From the IMG/VR virus record IMGVR_UViG_3300032898_000488, positions 1 to 28,278 of that record: a stretch of DNA of 28,278 nt. One strand, given 5' to 3'. This DNA comes from a virus. The position numbers were made by a program, and so were the translations under genes. Positions 4,893 through 12,258 of this stretch are shown here, piece after piece. The notes under the pieces are model-generated. The model had not been told where the DNA came from. It was given only the letters and a program-made list of their open reading frames with translations, and ran no database searches. How positions within the stretch are numbered: position 1 is the stretch's first letter; every line of letters begins with the position of its first letter.

Positions 4893-6344
4893 ATGGTTGG
4901 GTTTTACCTGCCGATCGCGAAGATCGATCGTGAGCAGAGGATGGTGTGGGGATATGCCTCCACGCCGACACGCGATCTGGATGGAGAGGTGATCGCGCTC
5001 GAGGCGATCCGCGGGGCGTTGCCGGATTACATGCAATGGCGAAATGTTCGCGAGATGCATCAGCCGAGCGCAGTGGGCGTGGCCGAGGAGGCGAATATCG
5101 ACGGCAAGGGTCTCTATCTCGGGGCCAGGATCGTCGATGACGAAGCGTGGAAGAAGGTTCTCGCGGAGGTCTATAAAGGTTTTTCAATCGGCGGCAACGT
5201 GACCGAGCGCGACGGAAGCACGGTAACCGGCCTTGAGCTGATCGAGATTTCCCTTGTCGATCGGCCGGCAAATCCGGATTGCCGGATCGAGGTGATCAAG
5301 GCCGCGCATGCGGACGGGACCGCCGAGGCGGAGGCGCCGGCCGAGGAGGCGGACTTTGCCGATCCGGGGTACCTTCCGGATGGGCGCAAGCGCTATCCGA
5401 TCGATACGGAAGACCATATCCGCGCGGCCTGGAGCTATATCCATCGGCAGCGGGATGCGGCCGAATATACGGCCGAAGAGCTCGCTGCAATCGAGCAGCG
5501 GATCATTGCGGCATGGCGGCTTGTGATCGACCCGGCGGGGCCGAGGGCGGCCGGCACGATTTCACCAGGAGTGACGAGGATGGCGGAAGGCGATGTGGGC
5601 AAGCGCGCGCCGGCTGGCGCGCATGCGGGACATCTGAAGAAGGCGGTGCGGCATCTCGGCGAGGCGCACAAAAGCCTGAGCGCCGGCTTGACGTGCATGG
5701 CGAGCGCGGAACGTGCGCTCGGCCAGGATGAGGCAGAGGACGGAATGAATGCGTCGGCGCAGCTGGCGCGCGCGAGGCAGCTTTTGGAGCGGGCGCAGGA
5801 GCAGCATGTGCTTGCGCACCATCACATGGCTGCGGCGCTTGGGGCGGCCTCGGCCGGGCATGTGGGCGAGCGCGGAGAGGAACCGGGCGATGAGGAAACC
5901 GGGATCTATGAACCTGGAGGCGGGCTAATGCCGTTCGGGCTCGACCACATGACCGGGGGGAACGTGCCGGACTATGAAGCGGACAGGCCCTATCCGGGGA
6001 AGGCCGCGCGAGGCGTGCTGACGAAGCGTGAGGCGGAAGCGCTGGCCGAGGCTGCTTATCTGCGCGGAAAGGTCGAGGCGCTCGAGAAAATGCCGGCTTC
6101 TCCGCGCGCGAAACTCTTCGCCGTGCCGCGCGGCGCGTTCGGGGTCAGCGAGGCCGACGAGACGAGCACCATGGAGAAGCTGCTCAAGGGCGTCAATCTC
6201 GATGCGGTGGAGCCGGCGCAACGTCAGGCCGCCGGTGCCCGGCTGATCGGCAACATGATCGCCAATGCGGGGATTTTTGCGCGGCCGGTGATTGGCGATC
6301 CAAGCTTTCGTGGCGGCGCGGGTGCCGGACGTTCGGGCCGATAA
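4893..6344 (+). CDS. prohead protease fused to DUF6582-like and scaffold domains
   Basis: Processes the capsid precursor during head maturation. 483 residues. Residues ~1-135 are an XkdF/HK97-type (U35) serine protease: G-Y-A-S-T-P-T-x-D-L-D-G-E, then H56 in E-M-H-Q-P-S-A-V-G, S98 in Y-K-G-F-S-I-G-G, and the strand E-L-I-E-I-S-L-V-D-R-P-A-N-P; H56 and S98 are the likely catalytic pair. Residues ~158-210 (G-Y-L-P-D-G-R-K-R-Y-P-I onward) match a DUF6582-type domain. Residues ~240-320 are helical with a His cluster, and ~345-483 looks like a scaffold (coiled helix at ~370-395). ATG 4893 is preferred to GTG 4890 because GGAG at 4882-4885 is 7 bases away. Two internal in-frame ATGs (5580, 5928) also have good ribosome sites. 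Confidence 0.88.
   Translation: MVGFYLPIAKIDREQRMVWGYASTPTRDLDGEVIALEAIRGALPDYMQWRNVREMHQPSAVGVAEEANIDGKGLYLGARIVDDEAWKKVLAEVYKGFSIGGNVTERDGSTVTGLELIEISLVDRPANPDCRIEVIKAAHADGTAEAEAPAEEADFADPGYLPDGRKRYPIDTEDHIRAAWSYIHRQRDAAEYTAEELAAIEQRIIAAWRLVIDPAGPRAAGTISPGVTRMAEGDVGKRAPAGAHAGHLKKAVRHLGEAHKSLSAGLTCMASAERALGQDEAEDGMNASAQLARARQLLERAQEQHVLAHHHMAAALGAASAGHVGERGEEPGDEETGIYEPGGGLMPFGLDHMTGGNVPDYEADRPYPGKAARGVLTKREAEALAEAAYLRGKVEALEKMPASPRAKLFAVPRGAFGVSEADETSTMEKLLKGVNLDAVEPAQRQAAGARLIGNMIANAGIFARPVIGDPSFRGGAGAGRSGR
5567..5571 (+). promoter_or_regulatory. candidate internal ribosome binding site (start at 5580)
   Basis: AGGAG followed by an 8-base spacer and an in-frame ATG at 5580 (codon 230 of the protease gene), at the boundary between the DUF6582-like domain and the helical region. 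It could yield a 254-residue protein without the protease. Confidence 0.4.
5916..5920 (+). promoter_or_regulatory. candidate internal ribosome binding site (start at 5928)
   Basis: GGAGG with a 7-base spacer before an in-frame ATG at 5928 (codon 346). Initiation here would make a separate 138-residue scaffold-like protein (begins M-P-F-G-L-D-H-M) ending at the same stop as the protease, like the nested scaffold genes of lambda. Confidence 0.5.
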
Positions 6345-6348: not shown

Positions 6349-6356
6349 ACATGAGA

Positions 6357-7958
6357 ATGCTGAACAATGAGATCATCTCGGCCCTGCTCGCCGACGACGG
6401 CTTCATCAAGGGTCTCGGCGGCAGGCTTGGGACCATCGCCAAGGCCGACACGATTGCCCAAGGCACGGGGTTGCTCTGGTTCGACCTGCGGCCGGTGGTG
6501 CAGCTTCTCTATCCGTTCCAGGAATTGATTCCTGAGATCAGCCGGCTTCCGCGCGTTTCGGCCGATGGCGGCAATGCCTTTCACTGGAAGCGCATCACCG
6601 CGATCAATCCGGGGGCGATCGCGCTTGGCGTGAGCGAAGGCAATCGCGGTGGGCGGATCGCGATTACCGAGGAGGATCAGCAAGCGAGCTACAAGACGCT
6701 CGGGCTCGAAAGCTCGGTCACGTTCGAGGCGCGGCTGGGCGCGGAGAATTTGACGCCGGACGCGCTCGGGGTTGCGGTGCAATCGACGCTGCGCAGCGTG
6801 ATGATCGGCGAGGAGCAGGCGCTGATCCTGGGCAATGCGAGCACGCCACTCGGCACCACGCCGACGCCGACGCTCGCGGCTGGGGGAACCACCGGGAGCT
6901 GGGCGGCCGGCACTGCCTTCGTGGCGTGCGTGGCACTCTCGGGCTATGGCTGGCTCAATACCACATCCTGGAACAGCGCCACCGCGACGGGGGGCGTGCC
7001 GGGCCAGATCACCAAGACCAATGCCGATGGCTCGGTCGATAGTTTCGGTAGCGGATCGGCAAGGCCGAGCGCAGCGGCGAGCGTGACGGTGAGCGCCAAC
7101 CAGGTGGTGACGGCGACGGTTGCGCCGGTGCCGGGAGCGGCGGCCTATGCCTGGTTTGCCGGGACGGCCAGCACCTCTCTCTTTTTCCGCGGCATCAGCA
7201 CCTCGAACCAGGCGGTGATTGGCGGGCCCGGTGCGGGCACGAACCAGCCCCTGACATCGCTTCAGACGAACGGGGTCTTCCAGGACAACTCGACGAATCT
7301 TTTGCTGCCGGACGGCGTGCTCTCACAGATTTTCGGCAGCGTGTTCGGCGCCGCGCCGGGCACGGCGATGGCAACCAACCCGAATCTGCCGAGCAATGTT
7401 TCGCTGAGCGGCGGCGGTTCCCTGATCTACACGGCGCCGGCGGGCAATGGCGGACTGACCATTTCAGGAACGAACATCGCCGAGTTCGATGCCGTGCTGC
7501 GCGCGGCCTATGACCAATACAAGCTCGGGTTCGACCGTATTCTGATGTCCGCGACCGATATTCAGAACTTCATGGGGACGATGCTAGGGCAGAATGCAGC
7601 GGCGGCGTTCCGTATTCTCTTCGATGCGGATGCCGAGACCGGACGGATCGTCGCCGGGCGGCGGGTGACCAGCTATCTCAACAAATGGTTTGGCAATACA
7701 CTCGATATCGAAGTGCATCCGTTCCTGCCGCCGGGGACGATTCTGTTCTGGTCCGATCGCACACCGTATGAACTGGCAGGCGTGCCAAACCTGCTCGAGG
7801 CGCATGTGCGGCAGGATTATTACCAGATCCAGTGGCCGTTCCAGAGCCGGCGCTACGAATACGGCGTTTATTGCGACGAGGTGTTCGCCTGCTATTTCAC
7901 GCCGGCCTTCGCGGCGATCACCAACCTCAATGCGCCTTCCGGTATTGTGAGCCTCTGA
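6357..7958 (+). CDS. major capsid protein with Ig-like insertion
   Basis: Main shell protein of the icosahedral head. 533 residues, long for an HK97-fold capsid. The N-terminal part has the N-arm/E-loop-like region (L-L-W-F-D-L-R-P-V-V-Q-L and E-L-I-P-E-I-S-R-L-P-R-V), then a P-domain helix with E-E-Q-A-L-I-L-G-N around residue 150. Between about 165 and 290 there is a Gly/Ser/Thr/Ala-rich insertion ending in a fibronectin/Ig-like strand pattern (P-V-P-G-A-A-A-Y-A-W-F-A-G-T-A), which would project from the capsid surface. The C-terminal part (A-E-F-D-A-V-L-R-A-A-Y-D-Q-Y through R-Y-E-Y-G-V-Y-C-D-E) resembles the A-domain of phage capsids. Position directly after the protease, with a strong ribosome site, fits a highly expressed capsid. 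No N-terminal delta domain is evident, consistent with a separate scaffold. Confidence 0.9.
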   Translation: MLNNEIISALLADDGFIKGLGGRLGTIAKADTIAQGTGLLWFDLRPVVQLLYPFQELIPEISRLPRVSADGGNAFHWKRITAINPGAIALGVSEGNRGGRIAITEEDQQASYKTLGLESSVTFEARLGAENLTPDALGVAVQSTLRSVMIGEEQALILGNASTPLGTTPTPTLAAGGTTGSWAAGTAFVACVALSGYGWLNTTSWNSATATGGVPGQITKTNADGSVDSFGSGSARPSAAASVTVSANQVVTATVAPVPGAAAYAWFAGTASTSLFFRGISTSNQAVIGGPGAGTNQPLTSLQTNGVFQDNSTNLLLPDGVLSQIFGSVFGAAPGTAMATNPNLPSNVSLSGGGSLIYTAPAGNGGLTISGTNIAEFDAVLRAAYDQYKLGFDRILMSATDIQNFMGTMLGQNAAAAFRILFDADAETGRIVAGRRVTSYLNKWFGNTLDIEVHPFLPPGTILFWSDRTPYELAGVPNLLEAHVRQDYYQIQWPFQSRRYEYGVYCDEVFACYFTPAFAAITNLNAPSGIVSL

Positions 7959-10427: not shown

Positions 10428-10480
10428 GCGGCCGAGAGGCCAAGGGAACGGCCGGCGGCAACGCCGGACGATGAGAACGC

Positions 10481-12244
10481 ATGCCCGCAAACTTCCTGCA
10501 TGGGATCGAGGTTACCGAGGTATCGACCGGCCCGGTGCCGGTTTCGGTGGTGAACTCTGCCGTCATCGGCTTGATCGGCACCGCGCCGCAATGGCTTGTG
10601 GCCGCCAATGCGGCCGTGCTGCCGCCGGGGCCGAATACGCCCGTTCTGGTGGGATCGAGCCGGGCCGCGTCGCAGTTCGGGCCGCTCACGCGCGGCTACA
10701 CGATCCCCTATGCGCTCTCGGCGATCCAGACGCAGGGCGGCGGCTCCATCATCGTGGTCAACGTCTTCAATCCGGCGGTCCACCAGACCACGAAGGCGCC
10801 CGCAGTGTTCAATCTGCCGGCCACCGGAACACAGGTGGTCAATCTCGGGCAGATGGGCCTTGTCGGCCCCGGCCTGCCGAACAGCGGCGCGCTCGAGACG
10901 ACCGTGACGGTTGCTCCGGCCAATGCCCCGCCCAATTGGACCGCGAGCACTCAGGAGACCGTGGGCAACCTGATCAAGCCCACCGCCGAGAATGCCGGCG
11001 GCTTCATCTTCAAGGCCACAACGGCGGGCGAGACGGGCACGGCCGAGCCGGCGACGTGGAATCAGACGGTCGGCGGGACGACCACCGATGGCACCGTGAC
11101 GTGGACCAATGTTGGCGTCAACGGCTACGTCGAGAACACGGACTACACCGTCGATTACGTGAACGGCTTCGTGTTCGCGAAGGCGGGGGGCGCGATTGCG
11201 AACGGCGCGAGCCTCTCCATCGGCTATTCGTTCGCCGACCCTTCGAAGGTGCAGGATGCCGATATCATCGGCGCCGTCAACAACGGGGTTTTCACAGGGC
11301 TACAGGCCCTGCAAACCACGTTTCAGACCATGGGCATCTTCGCGAAGCTGCTCATCGCTCCGGGCTTCTCGCAGGACGAAGAGACCGCCTCGGCACTCAC
11401 CACGCTTGCGGGGCAGATCCGGGCCGTGGCGCTGATCGACGCGGCGCCGAACACCTCGGTTGCGGCGGCGATTGCCAATCGCGGCACCGAGGGGAATGCC
11501 TTCGACACGTCGAGCGGCCGTGTTGTCCTGTGCTTTCCGCAGGAGATGTTTTTCGACACGGGCATCGCGCCGACCGGGAACACGATCAACAACCAGGGGA
11601 TCGCGGTCAACACGCCCTTCAACGCGAACGCCGACAGTCCGTTTTCGCAGTGGGTTGCCGGTGTCACCGCGGCGCAGGACATCGCCAACGGCTATTGGTT
11701 CAGCCCGAGCAACGTGCAGATCCAAGGGATCGTCGGCCCCGACATCTCCATGTATTCCAGCGCCTTCGATCCGAACAGCGACACGAACACCCTGAATGCT
11801 GCGGGCATTCTGACCGTGTTCAACGGGTTCGGAACAGGCTTGCGGACCTGGGGCAACCGGCTCGCTTCCTTCCCGACCGCGACCGATCCGACCACGTTCA
11901 TCCCGGTTCGGCGGACGATGGACGTGGTCGAGCAGAGCGTGCAACTCGCGATGCTGCAATTCCTCGATCAGCCGATCTCGAACGGGTTGATCAATTCCAT
12001 CCTGCAAACCGTCAACGGCTTCCTGGCAACGCTGGTGCAGCGCGGCGCGCTGATCGGCGGGACGTGCAGCTACAACCCGGCGGAAAACGCAGTGACGCAG
12101 CTCGTGGCGGGGCAACTCACCTTCGATATCTCCCTTCTGCCGCCGCCGCCAGCCGAAGAGATCAACTTCAACGTTTCGGTCAACACCGCGCTGCTCAGCA
12201 CGCTCGGGCCGGTGAGCGCCACGACGCAGACGGCAACGAATTAA
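10481..12244 (+). CDS. FI: tail sheath protein with inserted module
   Basis: Contractile sheath subunit that wraps the tail tube and drives it into the host. 587 residues. The N-terminal F-L-H-G-I-E-V-T-E-V (5-14) and I-G-L-I-G-T-A-P are typical of sheath proteins of P2 and Mu relatives; so are V-L-V-G-S-S-R-A-A-S-Q-F-G, G-G-G-S-I-I-V-V-N-V-F-N, and the C-terminal I-P-V-R-R-T-M-D-V-V-E-Q with final beta strand I-N-F-N-V-S-V-N-T-A. Residues 153-212 (10937-11116) are an inserted copy of the shared module, in the surface domain I position where sheath proteins tolerate insertions. Long compared with P2 FI (about 400 residues) because of this and other surface insertions. No strong Shine-Dalgarno is visible before ATG 10481. 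Confidence 0.92.
   Translation: MPANFLHGIEVTEVSTGPVPVSVVNSAVIGLIGTAPQWLVAANAAVLPPGPNTPVLVGSSRAASQFGPLTRGYTIPYALSAIQTQGGGSIIVVNVFNPAVHQTTKAPAVFNLPATGTQVVNLGQMGLVGPGLPNSGALETTVTVAPANAPPNWTASTQETVGNLIKPTAENAGGFIFKATTAGETGTAEPATWNQTVGGTTTDGTVTWTNVGVNGYVENTDYTVDYVNGFVFAKAGGAIANGASLSIGYSFADPSKVQDADIIGAVNNGVFTGLQALQTTFQTMGIFAKLLIAPGFSQDEETASALTTLAGQIRAVALIDAAPNTSVAAAIANRGTEGNAFDTSSGRVVLCFPQEMFFDTGIAPTGNTINNQGIAVNTPFNANADSPFSQWVAGVTAAQDIANGYWFSPSNVQIQGIVGPDISMYSSAFDPNSDTNTLNAAGILTVFNGFGTGLRTWGNRLASFPTATDPTTFIPVRRTMDVVEQSVQLAMLQFLDQPISNGLINSILQTVNGFLATLVQRGALIGGTCSYNPAENAVTQLVAGQLTFDISLLPPPPAEEINFNVSVNTALLSTLGPVSATTQTATN
10937..11116 (+). repeat. shared ~55-residue virion module, copy 2 (sheath)
   Basis: Residues 153-212 of the sheath: N-W-T-A-S-T, T-T-A-G-E-T-G-T-A-E-P, then G-G-T-T-T-D-G-T-V-T-W-T-N-V-G. 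The last segment is almost identical to the copies in the tail fibre and the collar protein. Confidence 0.85.
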
Positions 12245-12258
12245 GGGGGTAGCAGGTC

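Follow-up and report, generated by a model that had tools for sequence, protein, structure and literature searches.

The IMG/VR virus record IMGVR_UViG_3300032898_000488, analyzed here over its 28,278 bases (the window), carries on the + strand a gene of 483 residues for a prohead protease-scaffold fusion (4893-6344). Based on sequence comparison, this gene with high probability makes two proteins: a protease-DUF6582-scaffold fusion starting at ATG 4893, and a scaffold of 254 residues starting at the internal in-frame ATG 5580 and ending at the same stop codon. We found that an ATG and a ribosome-binding site are conserved at the head of the scaffold in relatives, that the site is under synonymous constraint, and that one relative (L130; loci are given L numbers) has the scaffold as a separate open reading frame (ORF). 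Conservation, as far as the alignments indicate, separates ATG 5580 from another internal candidate, ATG 5928: the former is supported and the latter is not.

Conservation of the probable nested scaffold start

Both candidate starts are present in the window as the initial annotation had described them. ATG 5580-5582 and ATG 5928-5930 are in frame with ORF 4893-6344 and are preceded by AGGAG (5567-5571, spacer of 8 bases) and GGAGG (5916-5920, spacer of 7 bases), respectively; their products would be 254 and 138 residues long and have the protease stop in common. Across 16 genes of the window, 7 of the 112 ATGs that are internal and in frame (about 6%) have a Shine-Dalgarno match of at least five bases at a spacing of 4-11 bases, and two of these seven fall among the 11 ATGs counted in gene 4893-6344. 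With a longer gene list, in which one ORF overlay the sheath gene in the wrong frame, the count was 8 of 132. Two such ATGs among 11 in one gene are suggestive only. Since the evidence from the window alone is weak, the relatives must supply it.

Two sets of relatives were assembled. The first was obtained by protease-based searches of viral and genome contigs, which gave 115 loci, 43 of them used in the tables of nested starts. These tables excluded duplicate contigs along with the weaker matches L014-L032 and L074-L116, all of which served for a census only (L015 was also included in the inspection of starts). After removal of L002, which is identical to the window in their overlap, and of two truncated ORFs, the final first set comprised 38 non-redundant complete ORFs with the window included, 29 of the scaffold type and nine with other C-termini. 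The latter were set apart by eye, and a profile built from the 29 scaffolds had no match in any of the nine. For the second set, loci were selected by their neighbouring capsid gene, regardless of protease or scaffold. This set started from 80 loci, of which 77 were processed; the upstream ORF was too short in eight, and among the remaining 69, 29 were already in the first set. The rest yielded 21 new non-redundant ORFs; one was truncated, and the tests used the other 20. All these 20 ORFs lie upstream of the capsid gene and carry the scaffold head. The combined set contained 47 non-redundant relatives, the window and L130 excluded. In each ORF, the best ATG no more than 20 residues from the column of interest was taken, and the null was obtained by random placement in the same ORFs (5,000 shuffles).

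A site of at least five bases was present near the column of ATG 5580 in 22 of the 29 scaffold-type ORFs (null 4.6 +/- 1.9, maximum 13), or in 21 of 28 when the window was left out. The relatives of the first set that have both site and ATG reach down to 32% identity with the window. In the capsid-ascertained set, such a site was found at the scaffold head in 10 of 20 ORFs (null 2.0, maximum 7). When the spacing was restricted to 7-9 bases, a match of at least four bases within 20 residues of the scaffold head was present in 42 of the 47 relatives (null 7.8, maximum 18), one of at least five bases in 24 (null 3.9, maximum 11) and one of at least six bases in eight (null 0.85, maximum 5). When the nearest ATG was taken without any choice in all 38 ORFs, 36 had one in range and 16 of these had a site, whereas synonymous codons predict 4.3. 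Thus, the site and the ATG of the first start are kept at the scaffold head in relatives.

The coding context of the site was compared as well. The peptides before the start differ (SPGVTRM, TQEHINM, TQGEISM, KQEKTVM, TKGAATM and others), and AGGAG is read in two codon phases, as xxA GGA Gxx or as xAG GAG, its spacer being 8 or 9 bases. Because the motif stands in differing codon phases and encodes differing residues, it is not maintained for the protein. Where codon -4 of the nearest ATG, taken without choice, encodes glycine, it is GGA in 12 of 12 cases (1.54 expected). For the 29 chosen heads the count is 15 of 15 (1.7 expected), GGA making up 4-20% of the glycine codons there, and in the capsid-ascertained set, with all ATGs up to 20 residues from the profile start counted, it is 6 of 6 (0.59 expected). 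In addition, the 60-base region around each chosen start was compared with randomly picked internal positions of its gene and was less stably folded than their average in all 29 ORFs; in the window, the folding energy is -17.2 at ATG 5580, with a mean of -20.7 for internal places. These patterns indicate that the constraint at the nested start acts on the RNA and not on the protein.

In the region 958-3430 of contig IMGVR_UViG_3300037096_000044 (L130), protease and scaffold are separate overlapping ORFs in different frames. The protease ORF (958-2661) has 58% identity to residues 2-138 of the window protein (P0001), and the scaffold ORF has 32% identity to residues 232-472 (expectation value (E) 7e-21). 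The first ATG of the scaffold ORF, at 2651, overlaps the end of the protease ORF and lies 8 bases after TAAGGA. The two matches place ATG 2651 where the window has ATG 5580. No other split form was found in a census of 227 sequences, within the reach of the scaffold profile, and the remaining scaffold ORFs without protease in this census start at contig ends. Searches with the L130 scaffold, protease and capsid proteins gave no split besides the contig of L130 itself. Taken with the conservation at the scaffold head and the synonymous constraint, the separate ORF in L130 strongly supports the proposal of the initial annotation that ATG 5580 is a scaffold start of the lambda C/Nu3 kind.

The second candidate start and other readings

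The initial annotation had further proposed ATG 5928 (GGAGG with ATG, 5916-5930, + strand) as a second nested start, giving a triple arrangement. This was not borne out, for relatives with the same domain order have no start at that place. Met is absent from the column of ATG 5928 in all 37 relatives, of which 27 show a different residue and 10 are gapped, and ATGs bearing a Shine-Dalgarno match within 20 residues of this column are below expectation (3 of 29 against 4.65; with at least four bases at a spacing of 7-9, 2 of 28 against 5.1). ATG 5928 was rejected as a conserved start on these grounds and is most likely a plain internal methionine.

It is nevertheless conceivable, though unlikely, that ATG 5928 is used in addition, with a C-terminal scaffold fragment of 138 residues as a third product and perhaps a start gained recently in this lineage. 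Its GGAGG at a spacer of 7 bases is strong by duplex energy (-9.3 kcal/mol, against -6.9 for the site of ATG 5580). The four nearest relatives have ACG (L038), GCG (L039), ACG (L040) and GAG (L033) at this position, together with purine runs that are comparable in L040 (AGGAGG at 5 bases) and L033 (GGAGG at 8) and amount to GAGG at 8 bases in L038 and L039, so that one codon change would make a start. Of these four, L033 comes from a metagenome-assembled bacterial genome. The same runs stand without a start in these relatives, and the ribosome-like sequence therefore accompanies the coding of Pro-Glu-Gly/Glu. Seven relatives have Met two residues after the column, and only in L058 does a site of at least five bases (AGGAG, spacer 8) precede it. 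Another strong site with an ATG occurs elsewhere in the scaffold of L004/L034 and L035. The folding energy at ATG 5928 (-20.4), however, is that of an ordinary internal place, and a search for closer relatives of the window returned only an identical contig and the L038 and L039 contigs again. A more specific form, which we regard as quite unlikely, is that one codon change behind a pre-existing purine run has newly made ATG 5928 a second nested start in the window lineage, one stop codon then serving three proteins (the protease fusion, the full scaffold and a short C-terminal scaffold). If that were true, similar second starts, at other places, would have been gained independently in L004/L034, L035 and L058.

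The second strong scaffold sites are AGGAGG with a spacer of 5 bases in L004 (at 4657) and AGGAG with a spacer of 6 bases in L035 (at 5681), each before a matching ATG (MHHLAKAMAVWV and MHHLNKAMAVWV). Such a second site is also present in L034, which belongs to the cluster of L004, and is absent from the window.

Could both starts have arisen by chance from purine-rich codons in a G+C-rich gene, the full-length protein alone being made? Equally good matches do occur at about 6% of the ATGs in the window and at 62 of 595 internal ATGs (10%) in the ORFs of relatives, scaffold heads included, and this reading suits ATG 5928. For ATG 5580 it is very unlikely, being opposed by the conservation, the GGA bias, the folding and the split in L130. 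It is even less probable that the site is a disused relic of a fusion between formerly separate protease and scaffold genes. The separate genes of L130 could represent the ancestral state; a disused site, however, would be expected to decay and is found with its ATG in 42 of 47 relatives, and as the split occurs in one contig only, it may be the derived form. Finally, an internal Shine-Dalgarno motif at a domain border might pause ribosomes so that the protease can fold, without any initiation, but pausing would require no ATG 7-9 bases away and no weakly structured start region, and it leaves the separate L130 scaffold ORF unexplained, so we give it hardly any weight.

Several observations weigh against the reading of ATG 5580 as a scaffold start. 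By duplex energy, some in-frame GTGs (5595, 5964 and 6015) outscore it. In the whole-protein alignment, which is gappy here, Met occupies the exact column in only 3 of 37 relatives and a gap does so in 22, so that the starts are matched to one another by their place at the scaffold head. In 7 of the 29 ORFs of the first set and in 10 of the 20 of the capsid-ascertained set, the site has fewer than five bases or falls outside the tested range. For the glycine-codon test that gave 15 of 15 and for the folding test, 12 of the 29 head ATGs were chosen by us and are not the nearest ATG. Nine of the 38 protease ORFs have another C-terminus, and eight of these lack such a site near the column; Polewnik, a cultured relative, is likewise of another C-terminus and has no internal ATG with a site of at least five bases. 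L130 is a single contig in which a sequencing frameshift near the boundary could have produced the split; it is a limited witness, yet it points to the same start as ATG 5580.

Proposed expression scheme and known systems

For initiation itself, the copy ratio, the scaffold function and proteolysis, we infer the following scheme. Full-length translation from ATG 4893 would give the protease-DUF6582-scaffold fusion. The AGGAG at 5567-5571, lying in less structured mRNA, would drive independent initiation at ATG 5580 and so provide the scaffold of 254 residues without the protease. By analogy with lambda and Mu-type phages, the purpose is likely to be the supply of many scaffold copies along with few copies of the protease. 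The scaffold part may then draw the fusion into the procapsid, and the protease would subsequently cleave the scaffold. On this scheme, the phages with a protease-nested scaffold would gain an uncultured group, whose representative in the window has P2-type tail genes. An ORF caller that allows one gene per stop codon would miss the scaffold, which is probably the more abundant protein. The comparative test applied here (synonymous GGA bias, change of codon phase and a split relative) could be used for annotating hidden scaffold starts elsewhere.

In lambda, the head protease gene C has a C-terminal scaffold part, and an in-frame internal start gives the scaffold Nu3, which ends at the same stop. 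The window gene has the same layout of a protease with a C-terminal scaffold, an in-frame internal start and a common stop. The lambda C protease is of the SppA/ClpP type and is not known to carry DUF6582, whereas an S78 protease with DUF6582 is encoded here. The I/Z genes of Mu are of the same nested type. In herpesviruses, UL26 encodes a protease with a scaffold C-terminus, and the scaffold is expressed separately in the same frame as UL26.5; the likeness extends to both features, but UL26.5 has a separate transcript and the window gene an internal ribosome site. The protease part gave weak Foldseek matches to the pseudorabies virus and cytomegalovirus proteases (E 0.02-0.04). P2 is not known to have a separate scaffold start, in contrast to the conserved nested start described here.

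The nested protease/scaffold arrangement is already in print for other phages. In the published table for KS10 genes 28/29, the scaffold is listed with an ATG and an AGGA site of its own and ends at the same coordinate as the protease gene, as in the window; the S78 protease and the DUF6582 insert set the window gene apart from KS10 28/29 and from Mu-type I/Z. PMC8508860 describes protease and scaffold as coming from one gene, O, in P2. One gene likewise serves both in the window, which also has P2-type tail genes. Gene 4893-6344 very probably belongs to the nested protease/scaffold type of lambda C/Nu3 and KS10 28/29. A tblastn search with the window scaffold against 50,697 phage records gave no match at E 0.1. 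The literature search returned nothing on DUF6582, and there was no title on this phage group among the papers listed for nested starts, scaffolds and proteases.

Domain organization, other C-termini and neighbouring genes

Gene 4893-6344 has GGAG 7 bases before ATG 4893, with GTG 4890 as an alternative start, and PHROG annotates its product as a head maturation protease. The S78 prohead protease domain covers residues 31-139 (4983-5309, + strand; Pfam PF04586, E 5.4e-6, over the cut-off), and the DUF6582 domain covers residues 152-207 (5346-5513, + strand; Pfam PF20223, E 9.7e-14, 51.9 bits against a curated cut-off of 27.3). The C-terminal part matched a PHROG of unknown function, and only weakly (E 0.0009). 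An AlphaFold2 model of the 483-residue protein (m9863cf339434) was built from an alignment of 18 sequences and has a mean predicted local distance difference test score (pLDDT) of 67.6 and a predicted template modelling score of 0.31. Its order is a protease fold, a small helical DUF6582 region and then two long helices, residues 243-277 and 287-321 (5619-5855, + strand), in blocks with pLDDT of about 70-90. Further helices are predicted at residues 378-398 and 441-457, and residues 220-241 and 322-376 are low-confidence linkers, the first long helix following directly after the former. According to the model, the C-terminal part is a helical, scaffold-like domain. The best solved Foldseek match was the T4 gp21 protease (5jbl, E 9.6e-5). 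Both starts had been placed at domain borders in the initial annotation; this agrees with the model for ATG 5580 (residue 230, in segment 220-241) and not for ATG 5928 (residue 346), which falls inside the linker 322-376.

A DUF6582 match was present in five of the ten relatives scanned (L033, L035, L038, L004 and L040) and absent from the other five (L003, L005, L010, L050 and Polewnik). Four of the five without a match keep the start at the scaffold head, the site being weaker (AGGA) in L010; Polewnik does not. We therefore rejected DUF6582 as part of the mechanism; it is not tied to the arrangement, since the nested start is kept in relatives that do not match it. In L017 (2800-5391), a DUF6582 match (54% over query residues 145-220) lies near the N-terminus of an ORF of 863 residues, the later part of which looks by eye like a protease plus capsid protein. 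The DUF6582 segment may change position among phages.

Two cultured Brevundimonas phages, Polewnik and Strzyga, have the capsid gene in common with the window at 37%. The comparison of protease genes covered Polewnik; in Strzyga this gene lies at the end of the record. Polewnik (L117), with its other C-terminus and no nested ATG having a site of at least five bases, was ruled out as a cultured relative with the nested start. It forms a subgroup with L007, L008, L036 and L037, in which a GARHSK-like C-terminus follows the protease. The listed stretches of this subgroup have no nested ATG with a site of at least five bases, except for GGAGG 11 bases upstream in L037. In L007, a GTG stands at the GARHSK-like motif with GAGGTG 9 bases upstream. 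In L012 (at 3859), a relative whose C-terminus is also of another type, the strong internal site AGGAGGT precedes, with a spacer of 6 bases, an in-frame ATG that would give 145 residues; nested starts may thus recur with unrelated scaffolds.

The + strand of the window carries genes for a terminase and a portal protein, the protease-scaffold gene, a probable capsid gene and P2-type tail genes, namely those for sheath, tube FII, baseplate J and tail protein I (Pfam/PHROG). The probable major capsid protein gene (6351-7958, + strand, 535 residues) begins 6 bases past the protease stop. It matches phrog_13692, of unknown function (E 7e-86), and its product is probably the capsid protein, judging by position; the structure model (mean pLDDT 35.8) is too poor for judging a scaffold delta domain. 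On one strand, the long ORFs 10471-12252 and 10481-12244 overlap in different frames. The PHROG search of the former (593 codons) was without matches, and this ORF is probably a by-product of the G+C-rich sequence; the latter encodes the sheath protein, as identified by Pfam sheath domains.
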